Assembly: GCF_007904085.1 (NCBI RefSeq)
Contig: NZ_CP042326.1
Span: forward strand, 2,790,001 to 2,854,000
Source of the DNA: Euhalothece natronophila Z-M001
GTDB lineage: Bacteria; Cyanobacteriota; Cyanobacteriia; Cyanobacteriales; Rubidibacteraceae
Direction: 5' to 3'
DNA length: 64,000 nt
Numbering within the stretch: position 1 is the stretch's first letter; every line of letters begins with the position of its first letter. This document shows, in pieces, positions 3,398-52,151 of the stretch. Made by a program: the position numbers and the translations under genes. The notes under the pieces are model-generated. The model was given only the letters and a program-made list of their open reading frames with translations. It was not told where the DNA came from and did no database searches.

Positions 3398-3455
3398 GGA
3401 AAACTTCCTGAGTCAAATCATTGCAACTGAAGAACGTTTACGAGGTTAATATTTC

Positions 3456-4289: not shown

Positions 4290-4316
4290 TTAGCTCGCCA
4301 CTAATCCAATTTTGAG

Positions 4317-4348
4317 ATCCTCTTCCTTTGTTTGGAAGGGGATTTTTT
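4317..4348 (+). terminator. Rho-independent terminator after the betaine operon
   Basis: ATCC(TC)TTCC pairs with GGAA(GG)GGAT across a TTTGTTT loop, followed by six T residues. It lies 28 bases after the dimethylglycine methyltransferase stop and in front of the convergent hydrolase gene. Confidence 0.85.
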
Positions 4349-4350
4349 GA

Positions 4351-5235: not shown

Positions 5236-5267
5236 AATTAGCGATTGAGTTCTCTTGATTGTTCATG

Positions 5268-5296
5268 AAAAAAAACTCCCCACAAAAGTGGGGAAG
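5268..5296 (-). terminator. Rho-independent terminator of psaD
   Basis: On the minus strand, CTCCCCAC pairs with GTGGGGAG-like sequence around an AAAA/TTTT loop, then a run of eight T. It lies 30 bases after the psaD stop codon. Confidence 0.9.
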
Positions 5297-5324
5297 CTGT
5301 GGTTAAAAAGAGATTTTTTGTAAA

Positions 5325-5753
5325 TTAAACTTCGTAAGGTTCTTTTCCAGAGAATTTCACGGTCGCAGGATCAGGATTTTTACCGATTTTGCGATCGATT
5401 TTGCCCACGTAAGGACGACCTTCATTGACATTTTCAGGGAATACTCCGTCTTTAGGATGGAGATATTCTAATTCCCCATTGGGATAAATGCGATAAATTT
5501 TGAAATCCTCGATTTTAGGCTTAAATTTGGTTCGTAATTGCGTTCCCAAAGCGAGGCACTGTTCTTTACGGGCAAAATAGAAGACATTTTCCCCTTCGCG
5601 CATAATAGCAGCCCCACCTGTGGGCATTTCAAACGCTTGTTCTTTATCACTAGTCCAAGTGATGCCGTATTTTTCTTCGGTGTCGGCAGCAGTTAATAAG
5701 CCGCCGGTGCTTCCGCCAAATATAGGAGTTTGTCCAGAGAGTAATTCATTCAT
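5325..5753 (-). CDS. psaD: Photosystem I subunit II (PsaD)
   Basis: This peripheral stromal/cytoplasmic subunit of photosystem I forms the ferredoxin docking site and clamps PsaC. The 142-residue sequence is the full family length. It starts [20 protein letters not shown] and carries the conserved core [21 protein letters not shown], the basic [18 protein letters not shown] segment and the C-terminal FSGKEPYEV. The gene is monocistronic, with its own terminator and a divergent neighbour 119 bp away, as usual for psaD. Confidence 0.98.
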
Positions 5754-5798
5754 AGTCAGTTTTTTTTTCTAAAATGATGACATTTATTGGAATGCTAT

Positions 5799-5813
5799 CA
5801 CGCCTAGGGCGTG
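5799..5813. repeat. Short palindrome between psaD and the acyl-CoA dehydrogenase gene
   Basis: CACGCC and GGCGTG flank a three-base centre in the 119-bp divergent promoter region. It could be a regulator site, or the trace of an IS200/IS605 right-end hairpin, which has a similar consensus. No T-run makes it a clear terminator. Confidence 0.4.
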
Positions 5814-5872
5814 GGTTTTAGTAGTTTTGTCAAGAACTGTTACAATTTTGGCAGTTCCCATTAAGCAATTTT

Positions 5873-6976: not shown

Positions 6977-7823
6977 ATGTGGTTTATTTGTTGGAATTAC
7001 TACCCTAGATTTAATTTATCTTGCCCCCTATTTTCCGCATCCCAATGAAAAGCTGAGGGCTATTGATAGTACAATTTCTGCAGGGGGTCCGGCAACTAAT
7101 GCCAGTGTTACTTTTAGTGTGTTGGGCAATCAGGCGCGGTTGTTATCAGTGTTGGGCAAACATCCGATTACCAATTTAATTCGCACTGATTTAGAGAATT
7201 ATCAAATTGAGCATCGAGATTTACAACCCTCATGGGCAAATAGTCCCCCCACCTCTTCTATTATTGTTACGCAAAATCATGCCGATCGCGCGGTTATTTC
7301 TTTAAATGCTACTCGCTGTCAGGCGGAGATTAATCAGATTCCTGATGATGCTTTAAGTCATGTTGATCTAGTTTTAATTGATGGGCATCAAATGGCAGTA
7401 GGAAGCGCGATCGCGCAACAAGCCCATGCTAAAAATATTCCCATTATTATTGATGGAGGAAGCTGGAAAGAGGGGTGGGAAAGCATTTTACCCGTTACTC
7501 AATATGCCATTTGTTCGGCTAATTTTTATCCGCCAAACTGTAATACTCAAACGGAAGTTTTTCAATACTTAAAAGAGACTGGCATCCCCTATATTGCTAT
7601 TACTCAAGGAGAAAAGCCGATTTTATATCAAACTCCTGAAACCCAAGGAGAAATCGCCGTTCCTCAGATTACGGCTAAAGATACTCTGGGGGCGGGAGAT
7701 ATTTTTCATGGTGCATTTTGCCACTATATTCTACAACAAGAATTTACCGCTGCTCTTAGTAACGCCGCGAAAATTGCCGCCGAATCTTGTACCCATTTTG
7801 GGACGAGAAACTGGATTAATTAA
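6969..7823 (+). CDS. PfkB-family carbohydrate kinase
   Basis: This is a 284-residue ribokinase/PfkB-type kinase. The N-terminal substrate-side motif is GGPATNASVTFSVLG (about 38-52). The C-terminal signature DTLGAGDIFHGAFCHYI (about 239-255) includes the GAGD anion hole and catalytic Asp. It would phosphorylate a sugar or nucleoside using ATP in the cytosol; the substrate is not predictable. It overlaps the upstream acyl-CoA dehydrogenase-like gene, so the two are likely co-expressed. Its stop overlaps tail-to-tail with the PhzF-family gene by 4 bases. Confidence 0.88.
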   Translation: MSKCGLFVGITTLDLIYLAPYFPHPNEKLRAIDSTISAGGPATNASVTFSVLGNQARLLSVLGKHPITNLIRTDLENYQIEHRDLQPSWANSPPTSSIIVTQNHADRAVISLNATRCQAEINQIPDDALSHVDLVLIDGHQMAVGSAIAQQAHAKNIPIIIDGGSWKEGWESILPVTQYAICSANFYPPNCNTQTEVFQYLKETGIPYIAITQGEKPILYQTPETQGEIAVPQITAKDTLGAGDIFHGAFCHYILQQEFTAALSNAAKIAAESCTHFGTRNWIN

Positions 7824-36569: not shown

Positions 36570-37769
36570 TTAGGGCATCCGTCGTAAGAGAAACCCCCCG
36601 GCAAGTAACGCCATGACAGAAGCGGTATTAAAAACCCCAGTAAAACCGCCATGATTTAGCATCGGGCCTAACAAAACAGGGGACAGAAATTGCCCGAAAA
36701 AACTGGTGCCAATGCCAATGGCAAGGATGCTAGAACGGATTTCTTGAGGAGAAGCATTAGAAAGACTACTATATAAATTTGGTAAAACTAAGCCAAACCC
36801 CATACCAAAGATTGATGCAGACACAAGTAGCAAGAGATAGTAATCAAGCAGGGGAATGGTAAAGAGGGTAAGCGCCATTAAACCAAATCCTAGCGCGATC
36901 GCGCCTTGAATAGAATACCGTTTTGCGAGTTTTTTCGCCCCTAAAGCTGAGGTAAGGCCAGCAGTTAACGCCCGTGTGGCAAGTAATACGCCATTAGCAA
37001 CCGTTCCTAATTGCAATTCCTCTTTTAGATACATCGGGGCATAAATGACCACCGAATACATAATGGCAGCAGTCAGGGCAACTAAAATTAATAATTCTAA
37101 AACCCTAGCAGTGAGGAGAACGCGCTTTAATTCTGAGGAAATATTTGTGGTATTGGGTTTTCTGCGATTTTTAATCTCAGGAAACGCTAAAACTGCCATG
37201 ATTGCTAAGGGAAAGGCAATACTATAAAGGGCAAAAGCATATCGCCAGTGTAATGATCCAACCGTTCCCCCCAGGAGGGGAAAAACAATCCCCGCAATGG
37301 TTAAAGCAGCCGTGGCATAAGCAATGATTTGGGCGCGACGTTCCTGATCATATAGTTTCCCTAAGACTCCCAGACTTCCTGCGGCAATTCCCCCGGCTGT
37401 TGCCCCCAGTAACGCCCGACTGGCTAATAGTAACCAAAAGTCGCTGAGAAATGCCCCAGCAACGCCAAAAATACTGTATAACACTAAAGATGGCACTAAA
37501 ACTCGTAAGGGACCCATTTTATCAGCAACAAAGCCTAAAATCGGGCTAAATAGGGCAATGGTTAAAGCATGAATACTAACTAAGTTCCCTGCTAAAGCGC
37601 GATCGAAGTCTAAAACGGTAATTACTTCGGGTAAAACTGGGCTTGCTACTCCCCCAACCATGGTAATTAATGAGCCAGCTGCCAAGATTATAAACAGGCG
37701 CATTCTTTCCGACTGCACTAATTTCGTATCCGTCAATCTTTTCACTCCCAAATTTTCAGAATTTCTCAA
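36570..37769 (-). CDS. MFS transporter, drug/arabinose-efflux type
   Basis: This 399-residue protein has twelve predicted hydrophobic helices. Motif A-like GFVADKMGPLRVLVPSLV lies between helices 2 and 3, and ALLGATAGGIAAGSLGVLGKLYDQERR between 4 and 5. It sits in the cytoplasmic membrane and probably exports small molecules by proton exchange; the substrate is unknown. It is divergent from mraY with 54 bases between starts. Confidence 0.9.
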   Translation of the reverse strand: MRNSENLGVKRLTDTKLVQSERMRLFIILAAGSLITMVGGVASPVLPEVITVLDFDRALAGNLVSIHALTIALFSPILGFVADKMGPLRVLVPSLVLYSIFGVAGAFLSDFWLLLASRALLGATAGGIAAGSLGVLGKLYDQERRAQIIAYATAALTIAGIVFPLLGGTVGSLHWRYAFALYSIAFPLAIMAVLAFPEIKNRRKPNTTNISSELKRVLLTARVLELLILVALTAAIMYSVVIYAPMYLKEELQLGTVANGVLLATRALTAGLTSALGAKKLAKRYSIQGAIALGFGLMALTLFTIPLLDYYLLLLVSASIFGMGFGLVLPNLYSSLSNASPQEIRSSILAIGIGTSFFGQFLSPVLLGPMLNHGGFTGVFNTASVMALLAGGFLLRRMP

Positions 37770-37823: not shown

Positions 37824-38900
37824 GTGATAGAAACAAAATTGCCCGAGGAGATATTTCAGTCTGGAAAGGGATTATTATTACTTTTAACAGTGGTTGTTAT
37901 TACAGGGACAATTGCCCTTGATGTGAATAGTAGCAGTGTTGATCTCACCCTCCCTTTATTTGTCTCTTTAGTTGCCACAACCGCTGCTGGTTTTGCTGTT
38001 GTCCCTATTTTGCAACGTCTAAAGGCAGGGCAGTTTATTCGGGAGGATGGGCCACAAACTCACCTTAAAAAAGCAGGAACTCCCACTATGGGAGGGGTTT
38101 TTTTAGTTCCGATCGCGCTTTTAGTTGCTGTCTTTTGGTCTAGATTTCACCCAGAAGTAATAGCAGTGTCTTTAGTTACCCTCAGTTATGCGCTTATTGG
38201 CTTGGTGGATGATTGGCAAATTTTAGTGAAAAAGTCTAATCAGGGAATTTCGCCACGCCTAAAGTTAGGATTACAAATTTTAGCCGCGATCGCGTTTTGT
38301 ATTTATTTATTCTTTGATCACAGCAACGACATTACAACCATTCCCCTTCCTTTTGGGATGATGCTACCTCTCGGGGTTCTCTTTTGGGGATTAGCAGTGT
38401 TTGTGTTTGCTGCCGAAAGTAACGCCACTAATTTAACTGATGGGGTGGATGGGTTAGCAGGAGGCACTTGCGCGATCGCGTTTTTAGGTTTATCGGCACT
38501 CTTACAACCTGCTTATCCACAATTAGCCCTGTTTTGCATCTGTATGAGTGGGGCTTGTGTGGGATTTGTTATGCACAATCGTAACCCTGCAAAGGTGTTT
38601 ATGGGGGATACAGGATCATTAGCTTTAGGAGGCGCATTAGCAGCAGTCGGAGTTAGCAGCCAGCAATTATTTCCACTACTCATTATTAGTGGGATTTTCT
38701 TCGCTGAATCCCTCTCTGTTATCGCTCAAGTGGGGTATTATAAAGCCACTAAAGATGAAAATGGCGTGGGAAAACGACTCCTGAAAATGTCTCCCCTCCA
38801 TCATCATTTAGAACTCAGTGGTTGGTCAGAAATTCAAGTCGTGGGAGTCTTTTACGCGATCGCGCTATTCCTCTCCGTTTTGAGCATTTTTCTAAGTTGA
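37824..38900 (+). CDS. mraY: Phospho-N-acetylmuramoyl-pentapeptide transferase
   Basis: This enzyme transfers phospho-MurNAc-pentapeptide to undecaprenyl phosphate, making lipid I. With a GTG start at 37824, the 358-residue protein has about ten helices. It has the catalytic-acid motifs ALIGLVDDWQILVKKSNQG, NATNLTDGVDGLAGG and FMGDTGSLALGG, and the HHH motif MSPLHHHLELSGWSE. Its 3' 420 bases are repeated downstream (41713-42132) as part of a tandem duplication. Confidence 0.97.
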   Translation: MIETKLPEEIFQSGKGLLLLLTVVVITGTIALDVNSSSVDLTLPLFVSLVATTAAGFAVVPILQRLKAGQFIREDGPQTHLKKAGTPTMGGVFLVPIALLVAVFWSRFHPEVIAVSLVTLSYALIGLVDDWQILVKKSNQGISPRLKLGLQILAAIAFCIYLFFDHSNDITTIPLPFGMMLPLGVLFWGLAVFVFAAESNATNLTDGVDGLAGGTCAIAFLGLSALLQPAYPQLALFCICMSGACVGFVMHNRNPAKVFMGDTGSLALGGALAAVGVSSQQLFPLLIISGIFFAESLSVIAQVGYYKATKDENGVGKRLLKMSPLHHHLELSGWSEIQVVGVFYAIALFLSVLSIFLS

Positions 38901-38953
38901 TCCCATCACTAGAAACTATGAAATTAATAACCGCTTTGATCTTTTTTAATTAA

Positions 38954-38982
38954 GTTAGGAACTTCTTATAACTCACAACGTC
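38954..38982 (+). promoter_or_regulatory. Conserved upstream element of precursor 1
   Basis: GTTAGGAACTT followed by an AT-rich spacer and ACAACGTC. The same block precedes every precursor gene (39712, 42186, 43226 and 43978), 40-90 bases before ATG, so it is a likely promoter or operator. Confidence 0.55.
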
Positions 38983-39029
38983 ATTATTCAAGATGTCAGT
39001 CTAGATTAAGACCAGATAAAGGATAAAAC

Positions 39030-39614
39030 ATGAAGATCAAAAAACGAGGAAAAACTCTGATTACGCTAGTTTCAATTGCTGGTATGGCGACTGCCAGTAG
39101 TAGTGGTTTGATCAGCCAATTAGCTCAATCATTAGATCGCGCCATGATTCCTAAAGTACAGGCGGAAGAGTCAACCATCCGCAACCTGCAACGACGGGCA
39201 GTTTCTGTTGAGGATACTTTAAAAAGATACCAAGGAGTCAGAATTGCCATCGAAAGCGGAAGAGCAATGGTTGCTGACGAACGCGATAACTATCAAGCCT
39301 TAAGAGATGGGGTTTATCAGCACGAAGATTTATTTTTAATCGTTGAGCAAGGACAACTCACCGGTTATTTGGAACGAGGCACTGGTAAGCTATTTGATGT
39401 CTATGAGCGCGAGGGAAATTGGGTTGAAATCTGCCTTGGGCCCTTTTGCTGTGGAAGTGATGGTTGTGGATTTAATGGTGATGATGACATGCCCCAAATG
39501 TCTGTGGCAGAGGCTTTAGAACGATCAGAAATTTCCATGTCTGATAAAGGGGTTTTCGAGCGAGCGCAACCCTCCCAAGAAACAGAAAGACCTGTGCCAG
39601 GATCAAGTTTGTAG
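39030..39614 (+). CDS. Candidate RiPP precursor 1 (radical SAM-associated)
   Basis: This 194-residue protein starts with a signal-like leader shared by all five copies (MKIKKRGKTLITLVSIAG, then TASSSGLISQL, ending PKVQAEEST with an AxA-like cleavage site at VQA). ESTIRNLQ and a beta-rich repeat domain (about 55-125: DGVYQHEDLFLIVEQGQLTG) follow. The variable core is NWVEICLGPFCCGSDGCG. The tail ends ERPVPGSSL. It is Cys-richer than its paralogues, and its acidic run follows the core instead of preceding it. An AAAGGA ribosome site precedes ATG. Function as a precursor is inferred from repetition, variable core and the radical SAM partner. Confidence 0.7.
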   Translation: MKIKKRGKTLITLVSIAGMATASSSGLISQLAQSLDRAMIPKVQAEESTIRNLQRRAVSVEDTLKRYQGVRIAIESGRAMVADERDNYQALRDGVYQHEDLFLIVEQGQLTGYLERGTGKLFDVYEREGNWVEICLGPFCCGSDGCGFNGDDDMPQMSVAEALERSEISMSDKGVFERAQPSQETERPVPGSSL

Positions 39615-39670
39615 CCAAGAGCGTCATTGGGATGAATTTCCACAGCGCATAAAAGCCAAATGTTCTGACT

Positions 39671-39712
39671 AGAAGAAGACGAGAAGTAATCTCTTTATTC
39701 TTGTCTTCTTTG
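39671..39712 (+). terminator. Hairpin terminator after precursor 1
   Basis: AAGAAGAC and GTCTTCTT (with inner GAGA/TCTC) form a long hairpin ending in TTT. The same hairpin follows all five precursor genes. Confidence 0.7.
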
Positions 39713-39740
39713 TTAGGAACTTTCCAAAATTCATAACGTC
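39712..39740 (+). promoter_or_regulatory. Conserved upstream element of precursor 2
   Basis: GTTAGGAACTTTCC, an A-rich spacer and CATAACGTC. GTTATACC, a plausible -10, follows at about 39747. It abuts the preceding terminator, so each precursor seems to be its own transcription unit. Confidence 0.55.
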
Positions 39741-39800
39741 TGTTTTGTTATACCTAGTCATCTCAAACGATAGATGATGTAATTTAGGAGCGCAATAAAC

Positions 39801-40316
39801 ATGAAGATCAAAAAACAAGGAAAAACTCTGATTACGCTAGTTTCAATTGCTGGTATGGCGACTGCCAGTAGTAGTGGTTTGATCAGCCAATTAACTCAAT
39901 CATTAGATCGTGCCATGATTCCTAAAGTACAGGCGGAGGAGTCAACCATTCGCAACTTGCAACAACGGGCAATTCCAGTTGAGCGAGCTTTAGCCAGATT
40001 TGATGCAGTAGGGATGAAGATCAAAAATCGTAGAGCAATGCTTGTTGATGAGCGTGGGAATTATCAGCCTTTAGCAACTGGGGTTTATAATTACAAAGAC
40101 TTATTTATTATCGTTAATGATAGTGAATTTGTCGGTTACTTTGAACGAGGCACTGGTCAACTATTTGATGCCGATGATGATGATGTTGGTTTTTGGGAGT
40201 GCACTCCTCCTGAACCTGATGAGATGCCCCGAATTTCATCAGTTAAAGACACCTTACAGCGAGCGCAACCTTCATTAGAAACAGAAAGGCCTTTGCCAGG
40301 ATCGAATTTGCCATGA
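39801..40316 (+). CDS. Candidate RiPP precursor 2
   Basis: This 171-residue paralogue has the same leader and beta-rich domain (DGRG-type NYQPLATGVYNYKDLFIIV). Its single short core, GFWECTPPEPDE, is preceded by four Asp (LFDADDDD) and followed by MPRISSVKD and the conserved tail QRAQPSLETERPLPG. AGGAG lies 12 bases before ATG. The next gene is radical SAM copy 1, after a hairpin. Confidence 0.7.
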   Translation: MKIKKQGKTLITLVSIAGMATASSSGLISQLTQSLDRAMIPKVQAEESTIRNLQQRAIPVERALARFDAVGMKIKNRRAMLVDERGNYQPLATGVYNYKDLFIIVNDSEFVGYFERGTGQLFDADDDDVGFWECTPPEPDEMPRISSVKDTLQRAQPSLETERPLPGSNLP

Positions 40317-40384
40317 TCAAGTTTGTAGCCAAGAGCGTCATTGGGATGAATTTCCACAGCGCATAAAAGCCAAATGTTTTTACT

Positions 40385-40426
40385 AGAAGAAGACGAGAAG
40401 TAATCTCTTTATTCTTGTCTTCTTTA
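40385..40426 (+). terminator. Hairpin between precursor 2 and radical SAM copy 1
   Basis: This is the same AGAAGAAGAC / GTCTTCTTT hairpin as after the other precursors. Since the radical SAM gene starts 30 bases later with no other promoter visible, the hairpin may act as an attenuator giving much precursor and little enzyme. Confidence 0.65.
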
Positions 40427-40456
40427 CTTTCATCAAAATTATCAAGGAGAGAAGCC

Positions 40457-41620
40457 ATGTACTTTGTCATTAAACTTAGTAAACTCTGTAACTTGCGTTG
40501 TACTTATTGCTATGAATATGAAGAGTTAGCAAATAAAGAACGAATGTCATTACAGCAACTCGAATACTTTTTTTCTAATGTTGCTGACTATTTACTCAAT
40601 CACCCCAGCCCAAAAATTCCCGAATTTGTTTTTCACGGCGGAGAGCCTTTATTATTGCCCCATCAATACTTTCGAGATATTTGTTCCCTACAGGAAAAAT
40701 ATTTAGATCGAGTTGGGATTAATTATAGAAATAGCCTCCAAACTAACCTGTTTAAAATTTCCGACTCAACTTTAGATCTTCTACAAGAATTAAACATTAG
40801 TTTAGGGGTATCCTTTGATGTTTTTGGAAAACAACGGGTTGATATTAAAGGGAAAGATTCCCAAGAAAGTGTAATTCCTAATTTGCAAAGATTAATTGAC
40901 CGTAAAATTAACTTTGGTATTATTACGGTTTTACATGCGGAGAATATTGACTATGTTCTTAATACTTACCAATTCTGTAATGATTTAAGAATTAGTTATC
41001 GCATTTTACCAATTTCTAGTGTCGTTGAACCGCCGGCGCGAATGAAACACCTAATGTTAAGTAATGAGCAAATTTTAGAAGCCTATAAAGCTGTGGCAAA
41101 GGTTCAATTGCATCATCCTACTTCCATTCAAGTTTATCCGCTTCTAGATTTTTTCCTAGCAGCAGTTCGCTACTTAACAGGACAAACAATTAGACAGTTT
41201 CAACCCGAAAAAGAAGAGTGGGTTTTATTAATTAATGTTAATGGAGATGTTTATAATCGCGGTGAGGCTTATTTACCAGAAGGTTATATGGGGAATCTCT
41301 TTAATCAAAAATTAGAAGAATTATTAAATTCCCCTGAACATCAAGAAACCGTTGCGATCAGAGAAAAAAGAATGGAAACTTGTCGTCGTTGTCAGTTTGA
41401 TCAAAAATGTCACCAAATTCATATTGCTGAAGCAACAGACAGTGCTAGAGTTTATAACAACCAAGGACAGTTAGAATGTACAATTGCTAAACCGATGATT
41501 GAATTTATGATTGATGAAATTCAAAAATCCCCAGAAGCACAAGAACTATTAAATATGTATTATTCCTATTCTCAAGAGTCAGCCTCTCAAAGTGAAGCAA
41601 GTATTAACTTATCACTTTAG
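40457..41620 (+). CDS. Radical SAM/SPASM peptide maturase, copy 1
   Basis: I chose ATG at 40457 because AAGGAGA (40444-40450) precedes it; the longer frame from 40415 adds 14 residues across the hairpin. The 387-residue protein has the radical SAM cluster motif CNLRCTYC (residues about 11-18) and FHGGEPLLLPHQY. SLGVSFDVFGKQRVDIKGKD is a segment typical of the GrrM/OscB-like cyclophane maturases (recalled family). A C-terminal SPASM-like set follows: CRRCQFDQKC and a later Cys in LECTIAKP. Compared with copy 2, about ten residues differ, including three Arg lost around HHPTSIQVYPLLDFF. Confidence 0.88.
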   Translation: MYFVIKLSKLCNLRCTYCYEYEELANKERMSLQQLEYFFSNVADYLLNHPSPKIPEFVFHGGEPLLLPHQYFRDICSLQEKYLDRVGINYRNSLQTNLFKISDSTLDLLQELNISLGVSFDVFGKQRVDIKGKDSQESVIPNLQRLIDRKINFGIITVLHAENIDYVLNTYQFCNDLRISYRILPISSVVEPPARMKHLMLSNEQILEAYKAVAKVQLHHPTSIQVYPLLDFFLAAVRYLTGQTIRQFQPEKEEWVLLINVNGDVYNRGEAYLPEGYMGNLFNQKLEELLNSPEHQETVAIREKRMETCRRCQFDQKCHQIHIAEATDSARVYNNQGQLECTIAKPMIEFMIDEIQKSPEAQELLNMYYSYSQESASQSEASINLSL

Positions 41621-41622
41621 TT

Positions 41623-42132
41623 ATGTCACAGCGAAAGTATGCAATTATCGGTACTGGAGCAATTGGTGGTTATTATGGGGCACGCTTGCAGCAAGCCGGG
41701 TTTGATGTCCATTTTTTAGGTTTATCAGCACTGTTACAAGCGAGTGATCCACAATTAGCCCTGTTTTGCATCTGTATGAGTGGGGCTTGTGTGGGATTTG
41801 TTATGCACAATCGTAACCCTGCAAAAGTATTTATGGGCGACACAGGATCATTAGCTTTAGGAGGCGCATTAGCGGCGGTAGGAGTCAGCACTCAGCAACT
41901 GTTTCCCTTACTCATTATTAGTGGGATTTTCTTTGCTGAATCCCTCTCTGTTATCGCGCAAGTGGGGTATTATAAAGCCACTAAAGATGAAAATGGTGTG
42001 GGAAAACGACTCCTGAAAATGTCTCCCCTCCATCATCATTTAGAACTCAGTGGTTGGTCAGAAATTCAAGTCGTAGGAGTCTTTTACGCGATCGCGCTAT
42101 TCCTCTCCGTTTTGAGCATTTTTCTAAGTTGA
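41623..42132 (+). pseudogene. In-frame chimera: panE N-terminus fused to mraY C-terminus
   Basis: The first 32 residues equal the downstream PanE (GTGAIGGYYGARLQQAGFDV). After the TTTTTAG junction (41713-41719) the frame continues as MraY from GLSALLQ to the end, including GDTGSLALGG and the HHH motif MSPLHHHLELSGWSE. It has no stops, 169 residues. It lacks most of both parents and probably has no enzyme activity. It is two bases after the radical SAM stop, so it would be translated. The mraY part differs from the parent mostly at synonymous sites. Confidence 0.85.
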
Positions 42133-42185
42133 TCCCATCACTAGAAACTATGAAATTAATAACCGCTTTGATCTTTTTTAATTAA

Positions 42186-42214
42186 GTTAGGAACTTCTTA
42201 TAACTCACAACGTC
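42186..42214 (+). promoter_or_regulatory. Conserved upstream element of precursor 3
   Basis: The same GTTAGGAACTT...ACAACGTC block as upstream of precursor 1. The 12 bases between two AGAT copies present at about 38994 are missing here. Confidence 0.55.
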
Positions 42215-42249
42215 ATTATTCAAGATTAAGACCAGATAAAGGATAAAAC

Positions 42250-43128
42250 ATGAAGATCAAAAAACGAGGAAAAACTCTGATTACGCTAGTTTCAATTGCT
42301 GGTATGGCGACTGCCAGTAGTAGTGGTTTGATCAGCCAATTAGCTCAATCATTAGATCGTGCCATGATTCCTAAAGTACAGGCGGAAGAGTCAACCATCC
42401 GCAACCTGCAACGAGAGGCAATTCCACTTCGGGAGGCTTTAGCCAGATTTGAAGCAGTAGGAATGAAGATCGAAGGCCGAAGAGCAGCGGTTGTTGACGA
42501 ACGTGGGAACCCTCAGCCCTTAAAAGATGGGGTTTATGAGCACGAAGGCTTATTTTTAGTCATTGAGCGAGAACAACTCACCAGTTACTTTGAACAAGGC
42601 ACTGGTAAACTATTTGATGGCGATGATGATGATGAGTTGTGGATTGAATGTATCGGTCCCTATTGTCCTGAAGAAAATGGTGATGAGATGCCCGAATTTT
42701 CAGTTGAAGATGCCTTACAACGAGCGCAACCTTCACTAGGATCAAGACTAGAAACGTTACAAGAACGAGCAATTCCACTTGAGCGGGCTTTAGCCAGATT
42801 TGAAGCAGTAGGAATGAAGATCGAAGGCCGAAGAGCAGCGGTTGTTGACGAACGTGGGAACCCTCAGCCCTTAGAAGATGGCGTTTATCAGTACGAAGAC
42901 TTAGTTTTAGTCTTTGAGGGAGGAGAATTTACCGGTTACTTGGAACGAGGCACTGATCAACTATTTGATGCCGATGATGATGAAGAGTTGTGGATTGAAT
43001 GTATCGGTTATTGTCCTGAAGAAAATGGTAATGCTCATGAGATGCCCGAATTTTCAGTTGAAGATGCCTTACAACGAGCGCAACCTTCACTAGAAACAGA
43101 AAGACCTTTGCCAGGATCAGATTTGTAG
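42250..43128 (+). CDS. Candidate RiPP precursor 3 (two cores)
   Basis: This 292-residue paralogue has the common leader, then two copies of the beta-rich domain, each closing with its own acidic run and core. Core 1 is LWIECIGPYCPEENGDE after LFDGDDDDE; core 2 is LWIECIGYCPEENGNAHE after LFDADDDEE. Both are followed by MPEFSVEDALQRAQPS. The second domain is introduced by SRLETLQERAIPLERALARF. The two halves are nearly identical, pointing to internal duplication. It ends RPLPGSDL. Confidence 0.72.
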   Translation: MKIKKRGKTLITLVSIAGMATASSSGLISQLAQSLDRAMIPKVQAEESTIRNLQREAIPLREALARFEAVGMKIEGRRAAVVDERGNPQPLKDGVYEHEGLFLVIEREQLTSYFEQGTGKLFDGDDDDELWIECIGPYCPEENGDEMPEFSVEDALQRAQPSLGSRLETLQERAIPLERALARFEAVGMKIEGRRAAVVDERGNPQPLEDGVYQYEDLVLVFEGGEFTGYLERGTDQLFDADDDEELWIECIGYCPEENGNAHEMPEFSVEDALQRAQPSLETERPLPGSDL

Positions 43129-43184
43129 CCAAGAGCGTCATTGGGATGAATTTCCACAGCGCATAAAAGCCAAATGTTCTGACT

Positions 43185-43226
43185 AGAAGAAGACGAGAAG
43201 TAATCTCTTTATTCTTGTCTTCTTTG
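43185..43226 (+). terminator. Hairpin terminator after precursor 3
   Basis: AGAAGAAGAC and GTCTTCTTT arms, identical to the others in this array. Confidence 0.7.
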
Positions 43227-43254
43227 TTAGGAACTTTCCAAAATTCATAACGTC
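43226..43254 (+). promoter_or_regulatory. Conserved upstream element of precursor 4
   Basis: GTTAGGAACTTTCC...CATAACGTC, followed by GTTATACC as upstream of precursor 2. Confidence 0.55.
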
Positions 43255-43314
43255 TGTTTTGTTATACCTAGTCATCTCAAACGATAGATGATGTAATTTA
43301 GAAACTCAATAAAC

Positions 43315-43880
43315 ATGAAGATCACCAAAAAAGGAAAAACTCTGATTACGCTAGTTTCAATTGCTAGTATTGCGACCGCCAGTAGTAGTGGTTTGATCAG
43401 CCAATTAACTCAATCATTAGATCGCGCCATGATTCCCAAAGTACAGGCGGAAGAGTCAACCATCCGCAACTTGCAAGAACGGGCGATTCCTATTGAGGAA
43501 GCCTTAGCAAAATTTGAAGCAGTCAGAATTGCTATCAAAGATGGAAGAGCAACAGTTGTTGACCAACGTGGGAACCATCAAGCCTTGAGAGATGGCGTTT
43601 ATCAGCTTGAAGACTTTTTTTAGTTATTGAGAGAGGACTATTCATCGGTTACTTTGAACAAGGTACCGATACACTATTTGATGGTGATGATGATGGTGAA
43701 TTTATTGATGTCTGTCTTCTTTGTAGTGGGATGAATTGCTGTGAAACTCCTGATGATGTGCCTGAAATGTCTGTGGAAGAGGCTTGGGAACGAAGAGCAG
43801 TTTCTATCTCTGTTGAAGGGGCTTTAGAGCGAGCGCGACCCTCCCAAGAAACAGAAAGACCTTTGCCATCAGGTTTGTAG
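43315..43880 (+). pseudogene. Candidate RiPP precursor 4, frameshifted at a T7 run
   Basis: The leader and first domain are intact up to DGVYQLEDFF, then TAG. Precursor 5 has CTTATTTTTAG where this gene has C, seven T (43615-43621), AG: one base is missing. In the next frame the protein continues normally to 43880 with LVIERGLFIGYFEQGTDTLF, a Cys-rich core FIDVCLLCSGMNCCETPDD and the family tail ERPLPSGL. It is either a pseudogene or a gene rescued by slippage on the T7 run. The downstream half has no stop codons, so the lesion looks recent. Confidence 0.75.
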
Positions 43881-43936
43881 CCAAGAGCGTCATTGGGATG
43901 AATTTCCACAGCGCATAAAAGCCAAATGTTCTGACT

Positions 43937-43978
43937 AGAAGAAGACGAGAAGTAATCTCTTTATTCTTGTCTTCTTTG
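43937..43978 (+). terminator. Hairpin terminator after precursor 4
   Basis: AGAAGAAGAC and GTCTTCTTT arms, same as after the other precursors. Confidence 0.7.
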
Positions 43979-44006
43979 TTAGGAACTTTCCAAAATTCAT
44001 AACGTC
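43978..44006 (+). promoter_or_regulatory. Conserved upstream element of precursor 5
   Basis: GTTAGGAACTTTCC...CATAACGTC followed by GGTTATACC. A few bases differ from the other copies (CTCATCTCAATAGATG shortened). Confidence 0.5.
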
Positions 44007-44062
44007 CGTTTGGTTATACCTACTCATCTCAATAGATGATGTAATTTAGGAACTCAATAAAC

Positions 44063-44950
44063 ATGAAGATCACCAAAAAAGGAAAAACTCTGATTACACT
44101 AGTTTCAATTGCTGGTATTGCGACCGCCAGTAGTAGTGGTTTGATCAGCCAATTAACTCAATCATTAGATCGTGCCATGATTCCCAAAGTACAGGCGGAA
44201 GAGTCAACCATTCGCAACCTGCAACAACGGGCAATTCCAGTAGCTGATGCTTTAGCAAAATTTGAAGCAGTGGGAATTGTCATCAAAGACGGGAGAGCAG
44301 CAGTTGTTGATGAACGTAAGAACCATCAAGCCTTGAGAGATGGGGTTTATCAGCACGAAGACTTATTTTTAGTGATTGAGCGAGGACAACTCACCAGTTA
44401 CTTTGAACGGGGAACTGGCAAACTATTTGATGGCGATGATGATGATGATTTTTGGATTGAACATGTACCTGGGCCTTTAGGTCCTGATCCTGAACCTGAT
44501 GAGATGCCCCGATTTTCAGTTGAAGATGCCTTACAACGAGCGCAACCTTCACTAGAATCAAGACTAGAAACGTTACAAGAACGAGCAATTCCACTTGAGC
44601 GGGCTTTAGCCAGATTTGAAGCAGTAGGAATGAAGATCGAAGGTCGAAGAGTAAGTATTATTGGAGAAAATGGCGTGGTTGTTGACCAACGTGGGAACCG
44701 TCAACCCTTAAGAGATGGGGTTTATCAGCAGGAAGACCTATTTTTAGTGATTGAGCGAGGACAACTCACCAGTTACTTTGAACAAGGCACTGGTCAACTA
44801 TTTGATGCCGATGATGATGATGAGTTGTTCATTGAATGTATCGGTAATTGTACTGGATCTGATGAGATGCCCCGATTTCAAGTTGAAGATGCCTTACAAC
44901 GAGCGCAACCTTCCCGAGGAACAGAAAGACCTTTGCCATCAGGTTTGTAG
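44063..44950 (+). CDS. Candidate RiPP precursor 5 (two cores)
   Basis: This 295-residue paralogue has two domains and two different cores. FWIEHVPGPLGPDPEPDE (no Cys) follows LFDGDDDDD; LFIECIGNCTGSDE follows LFDADDDDE. The linker SRLETLQERAIPLERALARF is as in precursor 3. The second domain has a seven-residue insertion (SIIGENG). AGGA lies before ATG. It is followed by the hairpin and radical SAM copy 2. Confidence 0.72.
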   Translation: MKITKKGKTLITLVSIAGIATASSSGLISQLTQSLDRAMIPKVQAEESTIRNLQQRAIPVADALAKFEAVGIVIKDGRAAVVDERKNHQALRDGVYQHEDLFLVIERGQLTSYFERGTGKLFDGDDDDDFWIEHVPGPLGPDPEPDEMPRFSVEDALQRAQPSLESRLETLQERAIPLERALARFEAVGMKIEGRRVSIIGENGVVVDQRGNRQPLRDGVYQQEDLFLVIERGQLTSYFEQGTGQLFDADDDDELFIECIGNCTGSDEMPRFQVEDALQRAQPSRGTERPLPSGL

Positions 44951-45006
44951 CCAAGAGCGTCATTGGGATGAATTTCCACAGCGCATAAAAGCCAAATGTT
45001 TTTACT

Positions 45007-45057
45007 AGAAGAAGACGAGAAGTAATCTCTTTATTCTTGTCTTCTTTACTTTCATCA
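45007..45057 (+). terminator. Hairpin between precursor 5 and radical SAM copy 2
   Basis: The same hairpin as after the other precursors; the maturase start follows 22 bases later. Confidence 0.65.
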
Positions 45058-45078
45058 AAATTATCAAGGAGAGAAGCC

Positions 45079-46242
45079 ATGTACTTTGTCATTAAACTTA
45101 GTAAACTCTGTAACTTGCGTTGTACTTATTGCTATGAATATGAAGAGTTAGCAAATAAAGAGCGAATGTCATTACAGCAACTCGAATACTTTTTTTCTCA
45201 TGTTGCTGACTATTTACTCAATCACCCCAGCCCAAAAATTCCCGAATTTGTTTTTCACGGCGGAGAGCCTTTATTATTGCCCCATCAATACTTTCGAGAT
45301 ATTTGTTCCCTACAGGAAAAATATTTAGATCGAGTTGGGATTAATTATAGAAATAGCCTCCAAACTAACCTGTTTAAAATTTCCGACTCAACTTTAGATC
45401 TTCTACAAGAATTAAACATTAGTTTAGGGGTATCCTTTGATGTTTTTGGAAAACAACGGGTTGATATTAAAGGGAAGGATTCTCAAGAAAGTGTAATTCC
45501 TAATTTGCAAAGATTAATTGACCGTAAAATTAACTTTGGGATTATTACGGTTTTACATGCAGAGAATATTGACTATGTTCTTAATACTTACCAATTCTGT
45601 AATGACTTAGGAATTAATTATCGCATTTTACCGATTTCTAGTGTCGTTGAACCGCCAGCGCGAATGAAACATCTAATGTTAAGTAATGAGCAAATTTTAG
45701 AAGCCTATAAAGCTGTGGCAAAGGTTCACTTGCATCGTCCTACTTCCATTCGAGTTTATCCGCTTCGAGATTTTTTCTTAGCAGCAGTTCGCTATTTAAC
45801 AGGACAAACAATTAGACAGTTTCAACCCGAAAAAGAAGAATGGGTTTTAATAATTAACGTTAATGGAGATGTTTATAATCGCGGTGACGCTTATTTGCCA
45901 GAAGGTTATATGGGGAATCTCTTTAATCAAAAATTAGAAGAATTATTAAATTCCCCTGAACATCAAGAAACTGTTGCGATAAGAGAAAAAAGAATGGAAA
46001 CCTGTCGTCGTTGTCAGTTTGATCAAAAATGTCACCAAATTCATATTGCTGAAGCAACAGACAGTGCTAGAGTTTATAACAACCAAGGACAGTTAGAATG
46101 TACAATTGCTAAACCGATGATTGAATTTATGATTGATGAAATTCAAAAATCCCCAGAAGCACAAGAACTATTAAATATGTATTATTCCTATTCTCAAGAG
46201 TCAGCCTCTCAAGGGGAAGCAAGTATTAACTTATCACTTTAG
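45079..46242 (+). CDS. Radical SAM/SPASM peptide maturase, copy 2
   Basis: This 387-residue protein is almost identical to copy 1, with ATG at 45079 after AAGGAGA. It carries CNLRCTYC for the radical SAM cluster, FHGGEPLLLPHQY, SLGVSFDVFGKQRVDIKGKD and the C-terminal CRRCQFDQKC. The region HRPTSIRVYPLRDFF keeps three Arg that copy 1 lacks, so this is probably the more ancestral form. It likely cross-links residues in the adjacent precursors; three-residue cyclophane formation is suggested by resemblance to GrrM/OscB enzymes, not shown. The intact panE starts two bases after its stop. Confidence 0.9.
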   Translation: MYFVIKLSKLCNLRCTYCYEYEELANKERMSLQQLEYFFSHVADYLLNHPSPKIPEFVFHGGEPLLLPHQYFRDICSLQEKYLDRVGINYRNSLQTNLFKISDSTLDLLQELNISLGVSFDVFGKQRVDIKGKDSQESVIPNLQRLIDRKINFGIITVLHAENIDYVLNTYQFCNDLGINYRILPISSVVEPPARMKHLMLSNEQILEAYKAVAKVHLHRPTSIRVYPLRDFFLAAVRYLTGQTIRQFQPEKEEWVLIINVNGDVYNRGDAYLPEGYMGNLFNQKLEELLNSPEHQETVAIREKRMETCRRCQFDQKCHQIHIAEATDSARVYNNQGQLECTIAKPMIEFMIDEIQKSPEAQELLNMYYSYSQESASQGEASINLSL

Positions 46243-46244
46243 TT

Positions 46245-47177
46245 ATGTCACAGCGAAAGTATGCAATTATCGGTACTGGAGCAATTGGTGGTTATTATGG
46301 GGCACGCTTGCAGCAAGCCGGGTTTGATGTCCATTTTTTAGTCAAAAGTGATTATCCGTTGGTCAAAAACCAAGGATTAAAAATTGACTCCTGTGATGGA
46401 GATTTTACCCTACCGACAGTTAACGCTTATGATGATCCCTCTCTCATCCCTCCTTGCGATGTAGTTGTTGTCGCTTTGAAGGCAACTCAGAATCAGATCT
46501 TACCTAACATTCTGCCGTCGATTCTGAAAAAGGATGGCACTGTCTTACTATTACAAAATGGACTAGGTGCAGAGGAAAAGATTGCCAGTATTATCCCTAA
46601 CTCGATTATTGGTGGTTTATGTTTTATTTGTAGTAATAAAGTGGGGCCAGGTCATATTCGGCATTTGGATTACGGTAGCATCAAAATGGCTCAATATTGC
46701 CCTAATAGCGGTTCAGCAGGGATTACCAATGAGTTAAAGGCGATATCCCTAGATTTTCAACAAGCCGGCCTTGAAGTTAATCTTAGTCAGGATTTATTGC
46801 TAACTCGCTGGGAAAAACTAGCTTGGAATATCCCCTTTAATGGCTTATCTGCCCTTCTAGAAGCAACAACTGCTGAGATCATGGAAAATCCCGAAACTCG
46901 ATCCTTAGCAGAAGCGTTAGCTAAAGAAGTAGTAGAAGGCGCAAAAGCCAGCGATCGCGCTCTCTCTCAAGAGTTTATTTCCAACTTAATGGCTCGCACT
47001 GCCAAAATGAAACCCTATCATACCAGTATGAAGCTCGATCGCGATCAAAAACGCCCTTTAGAAGTAGAAGCTATTTTTGGTAATCCTCTCCGTGTGGCAA
47101 AAGAAAAAGGAATCGCATTACCCCGCATTGAAACCCTTTATCAGCAGTTAAAATTCATTGATACCAAAAACCGTTAA
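46245..47177 (+). CDS. panE: 2-dehydropantoate 2-reductase (PanE/ApbA family)
   Basis: This NADPH-dependent ketopantoate reductase family member (310 residues) has the Rossmann motif IIGTGAIGGYYGARLQQAG at the N-terminus and the catalytic region LLTRWEKLAWNIPFNGLSALLEAT (Lys/Asn). It would make pantoate for coenzyme A. It is tightly coupled to radical SAM copy 2 (2 bp). Whether it serves pantothenate or the peptide pathway cannot be told. Its first 92 bases are duplicated at 41623-41714. Confidence 0.9.
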   Translation: MSQRKYAIIGTGAIGGYYGARLQQAGFDVHFLVKSDYPLVKNQGLKIDSCDGDFTLPTVNAYDDPSLIPPCDVVVVALKATQNQILPNILPSILKKDGTVLLLQNGLGAEEKIASIIPNSIIGGLCFICSNKVGPGHIRHLDYGSIKMAQYCPNSGSAGITNELKAISLDFQQAGLEVNLSQDLLLTRWEKLAWNIPFNGLSALLEATTAEIMENPETRSLAEALAKEVVEGAKASDRALSQEFISNLMARTAKMKPYHTSMKLDRDQKRPLEVEAIFGNPLRVAKEKGIALPRIETLYQQLKFIDTKNR

Positions 47178-47257
47178 TGCTTTGAGTTTTATTGGCTTCC
47201 CCCACTGAGTCAGCTTCTCCTGCTACAATAAATCCTGTTCCGACTGCATAGAGACTT

Positions 47258-49525
47258 ATGACTGCTCCCTTTTCCTCAGAAGAAATTGCTGCTGAAAGCA
47301 TTAAACCCGACGAATACCAAGAAATTGTTAATCGCTTAAGTCGCCATCCCAATAAAGCAGAATTAGGGATGTTTGGGGTAATGTGGTCAGAACATTGTTG
47401 TTATAAGAACTCTCGTCCCCTATTAAAACAGTTTCCCACTAGCAGCGATCGCGTTTTAGTGGGACCAGGAGAAAACGCTGGAGTAATTGACTTAGGGGAT
47501 GGACTGCATATTGCGTTTAAAATTGAATCCCATAACCATCCCTCCGCCATTGAACCTTTCCAAGGAGCAGCCACAGGCGTAGGAGGCATCCTCAGAGATA
47601 TTTTTACCATGGGAGCGCGTCCCATTGCGATCCTTAACTCCCTTCGTTTCGGCAAACTCGATAATCCTCGCACCCGTCGCATTTTTTCAGGGGTAGTAGA
47701 AGGCATTTCCCATTACGGCAACAGTGTCGGTGTTCCTACCGTTGGTGGCGAAATCTACTTTGATGCAGCGTACTCAGGAAACCCCCTTGTTAATGCCATG
47801 GCAATTGGCTTAATGGAAACCCCCGACATTGTTAAGGCTGGGGCTTCTGGTATTGGGAATCCCGTGCTTTATGTGGGATCAACCACTGGGCGTGATGGCA
47901 TGGGAGGTGCAAGTTTCGCGAGTGCCGAATTAAATGAAGACTCCGCTGATGATCGTCCAGCAGTACAAGTGGGGGATCCCTTTCTAGAAAAATGTTTAAT
48001 TGAAGCCTGTTTAGAAGCCTTTAAAACGGGGGCAGTTGTCGCCGCCCAAGATATGGGGGCAGCAGGATTAACCTGTTCTACCGCAGAAATGGCAGAAAAA
48101 GGGGGAGTTGGCATTGAATTAAATCTTGATGCAATTCCCCATCGAGAAACAGGGATGACAGCTTATGAATATCTCCTGTCTGAGTCGCAAGAAAGAATGT
48201 TATTTGTCGCTGAAAAAGGACGGGAACAGGAACTCATTGATATTTTCCATAAATGGGAACTTCATGCAGTTGTGGCTGGAGAAGTAATTACTGAACCCAT
48301 TGTTCGCATTCTACAGGGAGGGAAAATCGCCGCAGAAATTCCTGCCACTGCTTTAGCCGAAAATACCCCTCTCTATGAACGAGAGATTCTTCCAGAACCC
48401 CCAGACTACGCAAAAACGGCTTGGGAATGGACAAGTGATTCCCTTCCTCCTTGTGATGAAAAAGGAATCAACGATCAAAGTTGGAATGAGATTTTATTAC
48501 AGCTACTCGCTACTCCCTCCCTTGCTTCCAAGGCTTGGGTATATCGTCAATATGATCATCAAGTGCAAAATAATACGGTTTTACTCCCAGGAGGGGCAGA
48601 TGCAACCGTGATTCGAGTGCGTTCTCAAACTCAGTCAATTTCCACTTATAAAGGAGTAGCAGCCACTACTGATTGTAATGGGCGTTATGTGTATCTTGAT
48701 CCTGATACTGGGTCAAAATTAGCAGTAGCAGAAGCCGCGAGAAACTTAAGCTGTGTTGGTGCTGAACCTGTGGCAATCACCGATAATCTTAACTTTGGTA
48801 GCCCTGAGAAACCCATCGGCTATTGGCAACTGGCAAAAGCCTGTGAAGGAATTGCAGAAGCCTGTACTGCTTTTAATACGCCTGTGACAGGGGGGAATGT
48901 CTCTCTCTACAATGAAACGTTTGATAATCAAGGCAACCCACAGCCGATTTATCCCACTCCTGTGATTGGTATGGTAGGGGTGGTAGAAGATGTGCGCCAA
49001 GTGCGAGGGCAAGGTTGGCAACAAGCAGGGGATCTAATTTATTTACTCGGACATAATACTGTCACCTTAGGGGGTTCCGAATATCTAGCAACAATTCACA
49101 ATACAGTTGCAGGTAAGCCGCCCCATCTCGATTTTGAGTTAGAAAAACAAGTGCAATTCACCTGTAGAGAAGGGATTAAACAGGGATATATTAATTCTGC
49201 CCATGACTGTGCGGAAGGAGGAATTGCCGTGGCGTTAGCAGAATGTTGTTTAGGGGGAAGTTTAGGGGTAGAAGTGACGGTTTCTCCTGATGATAATCAG
49301 CGTTGGGATGAATGTTTATTTGGGGAGGGGGCAAGTCGCATTTTAGTTTCGGTTTCTCCTGAGATGCAATCAGCATGGGAAGCCTTTTTAGGGGAGAAAT
49401 TAGGAAGTTATTGGCAACAATTAGGAGTTGTCAAGGGAGACAGCTTAAAAATTAATGATATTGTCAGAGTTAACTTAAATAGAATGAAAGAAATAACAGA
49501 AAGCGCCATTCCTAATCAACTATAA
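47258..49525 (+). CDS. purL: Phosphoribosylformylglycinamidine synthase, large subunit
   Basis: This ATP-dependent amidotransferase acts in purine synthesis. The 755-residue PurL is of the short (bacterial three-component) type. It has [18 protein letters not shown] at about 40-60, the metal/ATP loop [35 protein letters not shown] and the second half [26 protein letters not shown] and [16 protein letters not shown]. PurS and PurQ partners are not in the window. Confidence 0.97.
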
Positions 49526-50694: not shown

Positions 50695-52151
50695 TCCCTC
50701 TTTTGTCACTTTCCGAAGCAAGAAGTAAAAAATAATGAGTTCTAATCAACTCTTAAAAACCTATTTTAACTTGATGAACAGAAGAAAATAAATGCTGAAA
50801 CCCCAATAATAAGTGGTCATTATTAAACATCTCTAGCCAAGGGACAACTAACCAAAATAAGAACCATGGTTCCATAACTAAACGTAGGTTATGTAAGGCA
50901 TCTTTCCAGCTATTTCCCTTCCTCCAATTGGGATGTTGAGGAGAATTATTACTTGTTGATGGTTGTGTCTTATCATCACTGTCTTCATCTTGCTCAAAAG
51001 AGCTAAAACCTGGCGTTTGTAAGCTCACCATTAAATAAACACAGTAAATGATTTCCCACCACTTCTCGATCTCAGAAAACTTGGTGAAACGATAATCTTT
51101 CCAACCCAATTCTTGCTTACATTGGCGAAATCCATATTCCACCCAAGTTCTTAAACCGTAAAGGTCTCCTAGTTTTTTCTTGACCTTCCCTTGAAGATTG
51201 GTCATAACAAAAGAGGTCCCATTACTGGGCAAAGTTTCTGGGTCAGTGGTGAGATCCCAATAAGTGATTTTTCGTCTCTTGCCATAAACAATTTCTCGAA
51301 TGTATCTGGTTTCGGAACTGTTATCACTAAAGGTGCGAGTAAATTGACACCATTTATTGGCTCTTACCCTTTGTCCTGGGGGCAGTAGGACACTATGATT
51401 ACTTCTAATTGCTACTACATAGGAGAGCTGATAGTGAGTTAAAGTATTGATGAAATTGCTACTTTCTCCATACAAGCTATCTGCTAAAACTAGGTCAATG
51501 TTAAAGCCAAAATCAATTAACTCTTGAATCAGTTCTATGGCTAATTCAATCTTGGTTTGGTATTTATCCCCTGGTTTGAGAGTTCCTTTGGGCTTAAATA
51601 CCTTAAACTTTAAGGGGAAAGTGATATCTTGATACACTCCATAAGCATTGACCGAGACGATTCCTTGGTCAATTTTGCCCAAACTTCCTAAGTATTGTCT
51701 AGCGACATAATCGGTACGATTTCCCTTCTTTCTATCTCCAGTTTCATCAATAATGACGGTGATTGCTTTTCCCTTTAAGGCTTCTTTAGTTTTTTGTAAT
51801 CTTCTTTCTCTTAATTGTTCTACTGACCAAGGTGAGTTAGCAAGGAAGTGATGTAGAGATTGTGCAGAAGTAATCCCGACGACTTTGGCAATTTCTGGTA
51901 GAGATTTTCGTTTAATCGGTGCGATGAGTCCTAAATGTAAAAATTTAAAGCATTCATAATTTCTCACATCTTGAAACAGGTCTTGATAGTAACCACAATA
52001 GTTGTCTACGATCGCGCTAGTAGGTTCTGGGTCTCGCGGTAGGTGTTGACGAATCTGTAAAGCTACATCCATCATGAGCAGTCGCTTCCCTCTTTATTCT
52101 TACTTTTCCTTTCTTATCATTTTATCTCGGAAAATGACAAAAGAGGGTTAT
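50692..52151 (-). mobile_element. IS701-family element with TTAT target duplication
   Basis: The element spans 50696-52147. Imperfect inverted ends begin CCCTCTTTTGTCACTTTCCGA on the left (50696-50716) and the reverse complement on the right (52127-52147). Four-base TTAT repeats lie immediately outside at 50692-50695 and 52148-52151. It carries one transposase gene and sits at the outer edge of the IS630-type element. Confidence 0.88.
50753..52075 (-). CDS. IS701-type DDE transposase
   Basis: This 440-residue transposase appears full length, with catalytic Asp in ITVIIDETGDRKKG, second Asp in DLVLADSLYGESSNF and Glu in RTWVEYGFRQCKQELGWKDYR. The N-terminal part carries IAKVVGITSAQSLHHFLANSPW, the usual DUF/transposase lead of this family. 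No frameshift or stop was seen, and the ends are intact, so the element may still be active. Confidence 0.92.
   Translation of the reverse strand: MMDVALQIRQHLPRDPEPTSAIVDNYCGYYQDLFQDVRNYECFKFLHLGLIAPIKRKSLPEIAKVVGITSAQSLHHFLANSPWSVEQLRERRLQKTKEALKGKAITVIIDETGDRKKGNRTDYVARQYLGSLGKIDQGIVSVNAYGVYQDITFPLKFKVFKPKGTLKPGDKYQTKIELAIELIQELIDFGFNIDLVLADSLYGESSNFINTLTHYQLSYVVAIRSNHSVLLPPGQRVRANKWCQFTRTFSDNSSETRYIREIVYGKRRKITYWDLTTDPETLPSNGTSFVMTNLQGKVKKKLGDLYGLRTWVEYGFRQCKQELGWKDYRFTKFSEIEKWWEIIYCVYLMVSLQTPGFSSFEQDEDSDDKTQPSTSNNSPQHPNWRKGNSWKDALHNLRLVMEPWFLFWLVVPWLEMFNNDHLLLGFQHLFSSVHQVKIGF

Follow-up and report, generated by a model that had tools for sequence, protein, structure and literature searches.

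The cyanobacterium Euhalothece natronophila Z-M001 carries, within a stretch of 64,000 nucleotides that we refer to as the window (contig NZ_CP042326.1, positions 2,790,001 to 2,854,000; assembly of 3.52 Mb in 5 contigs), a tandem locus on the + strand in which genes for putative peptide precursors lie beside genes for radical S-adenosylmethionine (SAM) enzymes. The locus reads, in order, precursors 1 and 2, enzyme A, a chimeric open reading frame (ORF), precursors 3 to 5, enzyme B and panE (46245-47177, scoring above its NCBIfam cut-off), and it is flanked by mraY (37824-38900) and a purL-like gene with AIRS domains (47258-49525), all of them on the + strand. Its content amounts to two radical SAM genes, four intact precursor genes, one frameshifted precursor gene and seven variable cores (Table 1). 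An earlier note on this DNA had reported a locus for peptide maturation by radical SAM enzymes, with several precursors, two near-identical radical SAM genes, seven variable core segments and doubled cores in two precursors, and all of this holds: enzymes A and B are 97% identical, the core segments exist as written, and the doubled cores are those of precursors 3 and 5. We regard the locus as probably a module for ribosomally synthesized and post-translationally modified peptides (RiPPs), in which the precursors would be crosslinked by triceptide-like, three-residue cyclophanes at W/F-x-residue motifs.

Table 1. Positions in the window of the parts of the tandem locus
Feature	Position	Strand	Remarks
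precursor 1	39030-39614	+	194 aa, intact
core 1 (GNWVEICLGPFCCGSDGCGFNGD)	39414-39482	+	
hairpin element copy 1	39671-39711	+	
precursor 2	39801-40316	+	171 aa, intact
core 2 (GFWECTPPEP)	40188-40217	+	
hairpin element copy 2	40385-40425	+	
radical SAM enzyme A	40457-41620	+	387 aa, start from relatives and ribosome site
panE'-mraY' chimera	41623-42132	+	tandem-duplication junction at 41713-41719
precursor 3	42250-43128	+	292 aa, intact, two domain-core-follower units
core 3a (LWIECIGPYCPEENG)	42637-42681	+	
core 3b (LWIECIGYCPEENGNA)	42988-43035	+	
hairpin element copy 3	43185-43225	+	
precursor 4, first part	43315-43623	+	102 aa, then stop after frameshift
precursor 4, remainder	43624-43880	+	readable in another frame
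core 4 (EFIDVCLLCSGMNCCETP)	43698-43751	+	out of frame relative to precursor 4 start
hairpin element copy 4	43937-43977	+	
precursor 5	44063-44950	+	295 aa, intact, two domain-core-follower units
core 5a (FWIEHVPGPLGPDPEP)	44450-44497	+	
core 5b (LFIECIGNCTGS)	44825-44860	+	
hairpin element copy 5	45007-45047	+	
radical SAM enzyme B	45079-46242	+	387 aa

Precursors, hairpins and the tandem duplication

Most precursors of the family have in common a signal-like leader, a beta domain, a Trp core and a follower. In an alignment of 16 of them, which reads as a leader ending in Ala-x-Ala, a domain with G-x-Y, a core Trp and a follower, residues Q30, L31, L35, A45, G94 and Y96 never vary and G26, L27, W131 and V148 hardly ever do. 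Within the window, mean identity is 93% for the leader (five genes, lowest value 89%), 64% for the beta domain (six units), and 64% and 27% for the follower and the core, respectively (seven units each); the five paralogues of the earlier note are therefore present, but its description of their leader and tail as identical was too strong, and one of the five is frameshifted. The general pattern of RiPP precursors, a conserved leader and a variable core with an adjacent maturase, is evident, and the character of the leader suggests that the precursors are exported. In the double precursors 3 and 5 a separate follower copy comes after every core, an argument for the two working together. In the predicted structure of the precursor (mean predicted local distance difference test score, pLDDT, 61.8) residues 51-120 reach 81-89, and the domain is mostly strands (residues 69-115), in agreement with the beta-rich domain that had been proposed to precede the core. 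A fold search with this model against the PDB and viral models returned nothing at E 0.001 or better, and the best matches of the precursor profile to solved structures and of the precursors to PHROGs had E values of 0.055 and 0.014, respectively. Against NCBIfam and Pfam, the precursors reached no curated cut-off except for the Nif11 leader of one distant precursor (locus L008); of the window precursors, the four intact ones and the opening part of precursor 4 gave nothing above the NCBIfam cut-offs, and no Nif11 leader.

Each of the five precursor genes is followed by an identical element of 41 nt, and a 65-nt probe finds five sites in the genome, all of them at this locus. Neither these elements nor the chimeric ORF at the duplication junction figured in the earlier note. 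The five regions fold into hairpins at -25 to -28.9 kcal/mol (z -2.1 to -3.4), which likely serve in transcript trimming or partial termination, so that precursor would be made in excess of enzyme.

Segment 38481-39406 of the window recurs at 41713-42626 with 90.5% identity, and segment 39957-41719 recurs at 44573-46341 with 91.8% identity. The chimeric ORF starts as panE and runs on in frame into the 3' part of mraY, and both arms at its junction have TTTTTAG in common. The repeats and the panE'-mraY' junction therefore establish that the locus arose by tandem duplication of an mraY-module-panE segment, and the precursor units multiplied further. The arms have diverged unevenly: the panE piece is identical over 90 bases, and the enzyme copies, which are under constraint, differ with dS 0.078 and dN/dS 0.15 (synonymous rate and nonsynonymous-to-synonymous ratio). 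Between the mraY' part of the chimera and mraY there are 20.0 synonymous changes and 5.0 nonsynonymous ones (dS 0.238, dN/dS 0.07), a ratio that is odd for a broken copy; because it is so low, it suggests that the mraY' arm diverged within a working mraY elsewhere and arrived by recombination, or that gene conversion has acted. A transporter gene of the major facilitator superfamily type beside mraY (36570-37769) is kept in all five genomes of the same genus, where the genes within the 1.5 kb examined after mraY have no match to any window ORF. Since the enzyme was not found in these five genomes at 1e-40, nor the precursor at 0.01, the module was either gained in the window genome or lost in the others. 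A DDE transposase gene lies at 50753-52075 on the - strand, ~3.6 kb downstream of panE.

The enzymes and their pairing with precursors

Enzymes A and B score above the Pfam cut-offs for Radical_SAM (60.1 and 59.3 bits) and SPASM (26.9 and 27.9 bits). The ORFs as listed open at TTG (40415 and 45037), and relatives together with a AAGGAGAG site place the starts at ATG 40457 and 45079. The CxxxCxxC cluster is present, and C11, C15, C18, C309, C312, C318 and C341 are invariant in 10 aligned enzyme rows; the SPASM region has only four cysteines, as compared to seven in the full SPASM motif. Among the best 25 of 68 and the best 25 of 70 NCBIfam matches examined for the two enzymes, none comes near its cut-off. 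DynA is the best match of both (142 and 141.5 bits, cut-off 450); the sulfatase maturase model gives 131-136 bits (cut-off 349) and DarE 101 and 102.9 bits (cut-off 650). The earlier note had assigned the enzymes to the GrrM/OscB type, and this assignment fails: they score 82 and 80.8 bits against TIGR04261, for which the curated cut-off is 310, whereas true GrrM proteins exceed that cut-off in 15 of 100 relatives with 412-633 bits, and a tree of 43 proteins places all 15 GrrM rows in a single clade (100/100) with the window enzymes outside it. The 18 rows of the close family lie on one side of a 98/94 branch of the same tree, which was built from proteins trimmed to 361-420 residues and is unsure in its long branches, most of all that of Bradyrhizobium. 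The enzyme model (mean pLDDT 70.9, predicted template modelling score 0.75) is nearest among solved structures to anSME (E 1.4e-12) and then to ChlB (4.2e-10), the latter solved together with the leader of its precursor.

Among 195 relatives, enzyme matches at 1e-40 occur in 10 genomes, six with a close form (the window genome included) and four with a distant form; outside the window, close forms are 55-67% identical to the window enzyme and distant forms 33-35%. A draw of 386 genomes from the phylum contained nine with matches at 1e-50, and a scan of contigs yielded 11 loci, from Nodularia, Calothrix, Rivularia, Nostoc, Richelia and Plectonema (two loci) at 53-56%, from Bradyrhizobium at 46%, and from one member of the Thermosynechococcaceae and two Nannocystis at 32-36%. 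The enzyme thus represents a small family of cyanobacteria plus one Bradyrhizobium, and the enzyme-precursor pair has no name in the family libraries searched.

A precursor-like ORF lies directly upstream of the enzyme in 18 of 18 close-family rows, read by eye (two of the rows, L027 and L034, are identical), at a distance of 12-412 nt in the 17 that were measured. These precursors were found by their adjacency to the enzyme, and the independent part of the evidence is the absence of the precursor profile from other relatives: strong matches (E 2e-14 or better) occur in 6 of 195 relatives, the same six that hold the close enzyme, with a profile of 16 rows of which 12 come from those six genomes. 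It had been stated in advance that wide occurrence of precursor-like genes without a radical SAM partner would speak against the locus assignment; in this comparison, run in part, no such spread was seen, but three paralogues in two genomes (G020 and G194) lie away from any enzyme (L057 1495-2097, L059 1330-1959 and L061 1243-1668). Weak profile matches (E 0.001-0.002) in three further genomes were rejected by eye, those in the related genomes G023 and G071 as antisense to the same transporter-like ORF and that in G125 as internal to a MiaA-like ORF. The distant group consists of nine precursor-like ORFs beside distant enzymes, including the Nif11-leader precursor of L008, whose leader scores above its cut-off and whose enzyme is 35% identical to that of the window; no precursor was identified at the two Nannocystis loci (L041, L042).

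Several other genes recur around these pairs. A protein with a YHGS motif is encoded next to the pair in Calothrix (L033 6200-6661), Plectonema (L037 6185-6616) and Bradyrhizobium (L039 3698-4642) and may be a third component that accompanies the module; the first and last are 38% identical (E 1e-31), and Pfam gave no match above cut-off. Downstream of four distant-form enzymes is a conserved protein of ~300 aa (L008 465-1376, L010 431-1342, L028 2874-3755, L030 2690-3655; 39% identity between L008 and L028, none above cut-off in Pfam) whose HLDSW resembles, by eye, an iron/2-oxoglutarate oxygenase, and which may be a second tailoring enzyme. At locus L040 two giant proteins, 719 and 738 aa long, are encoded side by side (2740-4899 and 4896-7112), each opening with a radical SAM motif; these genes recur in L029 and L031, with a Nif11-like ORF nearby (L031 3166-3609). 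In three precursors (L034 4002-4763, L036 4018-4779, L038 4065-4838) domain-like sequence also follows the core, and the Trp segment lies between two similar domains. A conserved peptidase was not recognised among the neighbours when raw ORFs were read by eye, with no search aimed at peptidases.

The i/i+2 motif and the predicted chemistry

The earlier note had assigned one aromatic-X-acidic target to each core. The motif does occur once in each of the seven, but the cores are duplicates of one another and by themselves form weak evidence; the statistics come from relatives. Among 54 Trp located after residue 40 of 19 precursors (L027 and L036, as copies or near-copies, were left out of the set, and so were precursor 4 with its frameshift and the orphan paralogues L057, L059 and L061), the residue at W+2 is D, E, Q or R in 48 (Q 17, E 15, D 8, R 8, other 6), as compared to a mean of 17.7 on shuffling, with none of 5000 shuffles as high. 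The same residues occur at W+1 in 18 of 54 (shuffle mean 18.3), as expected by chance, and at W+3 in 11 of 54 (mean 17.4), below chance. In a less redundant subset of 11, hand-picked from the 19 as one per lineage, the count is 30 of 33 (shuffle mean 11.0, 0/10000), and in 30 ordinary window ORFs it is 56 of 162. The five W+2 residues of the distant group are D (two), E (two) and N; the Nif11-type distant members display only F-x-D/E/Q and similar motifs. The pattern of triceptide precursors, with a conserved aromatic residue at i and residues of one fixed class at i+2, is found in this family.

As a positive control, four GrrA proteins encoded next to true GrrM genes at three loci have N or D at W+2 in 12 of 12 cases and N at F+2 in 20 of 20. 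This agrees with the links reported for OscB in an excerpt of PMC11002830, from Trp to Asn or Asp and from Phe to Asn; the i/i+2 links given in that excerpt run from Trp, Phe, Tyr and His to Arg, Asn, Asp, Ser and Ala, and Gln and Glu are not among them. That the spacing is shared while the residues differ is the strongest evidence that the window family may carry out the same kind of reaction as GrrA/GrrM. It is because the i/i+2 rule is common to both that we predict three-residue cyclophanes, often at Gln or Glu, which would be formed by a family of enzymes distinct from GrrM/OscB on precursors that carry a predicted folded domain.

The window precursor would consist of a signal-like leader ending in Ala-x-Ala, a small beta domain, an acidic linker, a short core and a follower (approximately V-x-D-T/A-L/F). 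The enzyme would cleave SAM at its CxxxCxxC cluster and abstract hydrogen from the beta carbon of the second residue after Trp (or Phe), and this carbon would then be joined to the aromatic ring. The resulting three-residue cyclophane would resemble those of triceptides, with Gln, Glu, Asp or Arg as the partner, and the product would leave the cell via the general secretory route. Tandem duplication and multiplication of units have led to seven different cores, one of them in the frameshifted gene, and two near-identical enzymes. A bolder version, which we put forward tentatively and think doubtful, is a new class of radical SAM enzymes that makes Trp/Phe-X-Gln/Glu cyclophanes in exported, folded and uncut proteins, with the beta domain displaying the strained ring or rings extracellularly, each with its own recognition helix, and with the set of seven cores generated by tandem duplication.

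Several observations weigh against the cyclophane prediction. The chemistry is itself a prediction from sequence, and the best NCBIfam models (DynA, sulfatase maturase) represent other chemistries at scores far below cut-off. The 19 precursors are related, so that the 54 Trp are not independent. In core 2, where a Cys occupies W+2, F-W-E is the only fit, and Phe replaces Trp in cores 4 and 5b. The reading frame of precursor 4 is lost at a T-run and ends in a stop at 43623, with the core (FIDVCLLCSG...) in another frame. The follower pattern, drawn up by eye, matches 13 of the 19 close precursors and misses 6; of the 9 distant ones it matches 5 and misses 4. Positive selection on the cores is not supported (core pN/pS 0.81). 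The paralogues that lie apart from enzymes have no core Trp, two having an S-A-E-Y-C core and one being coreless, and the Bradyrhizobium gene, which has the W-x-Q/R motif without this leader and domain, is a candidate precursor by its position and motif. Finally, five of the seven window cores hold Cys together with an aromatic residue and Glu or Asp, and there a thioether is possible.

This last point is the attraction of a thioether maturase, similar to those of sactipeptides or ranthipeptides, that would link core Cys to Asp, Glu or another residue: Cys lies near or beside Glu or Asp in most window cores, and the PapB (72.6-75 bits) and SCIFF (49.6-52.3 bits) maturases are among the partial NCBIfam matches. 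We think it unlikely, as neither cut-off (340 and 425) is approached and 6 of 19 precursors that lack Cys after residue 40 still keep W-x-D/E/Q/R. Quite unlikely, too, is a ringless modification at the aromatic or acidic residue, or a decaying locus in which the enzyme no longer matters. The nearest solved fold is that of a sulfatase maturase, which makes no ring, and the frameshifted precursor 4 and the broken mraY copy could be read as decay, but the two-residue spacing rule and the constraint on the enzymes point the other way.

Relation to known systems and significance

Two known families bear both on these alternatives and on the placement of the module. Window cores are Trp-centred and DynA is the best NCBIfam model, as a maturase of the darobactin/dynobactin type with i/i+3 or ether links at Trp would have it; the DynA and DarE cut-offs are, however, far off, selection falls on +2, D/E/Q/R being no commoner than chance at +3, and the precursors differ, judged against the darobactin core, so that we consider such a maturase very unlikely. 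With GrrA/OscA-GrrM/OscB the module has in common a radical SAM/SPASM enzyme adjoining precursors with secretion-type leaders and an aromatic residue at i with a fixed class at i+2. That the enzyme is nonetheless a diverged but true GrrM/OscB member making ordinary triceptides is extremely improbable, given its bit score, the exclusion from the GrrM clade and the replacement of N/D by Q/E/D/R. The precursors of the window family are also unlike GrrA, being 110-295 aa long, not Gly-rich and mostly equipped with a domain ahead of the core. A Gly-rich GrrA/OscA precursor was not found beside the window enzymes by NCBIfam or by comparison with GrrA by eye; the same kind of reading found GrrA in three of four GrrM loci, the fourth (L086) having none within its 4 kb. 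The module, we propose, works like GrrA/GrrM without being a member.

Other relationships are more distant. The anSME and ChlB proteins are nearest to the enzyme among solved structures by sequence as well as by fold, but identity is ~20%, and the window enzyme has a dedicated, adjoining precursor. The Nif11-leader RiPPs of cyanobacteria are approached through the distant enzyme relative at L008, whereas the window precursors have no such leader. PqqE, which uses the gamma carbon of Glu, a separate PqqD and a different spacing, did not appear among the best 25 NCBIfam families listed for the window enzymes. The likeness to PqqE lies in the joining of Glu to an aromatic ring through carbon by a radical SAM enzyme, as described in an excerpt of PMC8326336. 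Among the open-access papers listed by literature searches, a scope that leaves out most subscription journals and with them the main triceptide papers, none described the pair in its title or opening abstract.

If the predicted cross-link is real, Gln and Glu would be added to the partners in three-residue cyclophanes, and the enzymes responsible would form a family distinct from GrrM/OscB that acts on precursors combining a folded domain with a follower. The duplicated locus in the window, with its seven cores and two near-identical enzymes, would then constitute a natural experiment in substrate scope.

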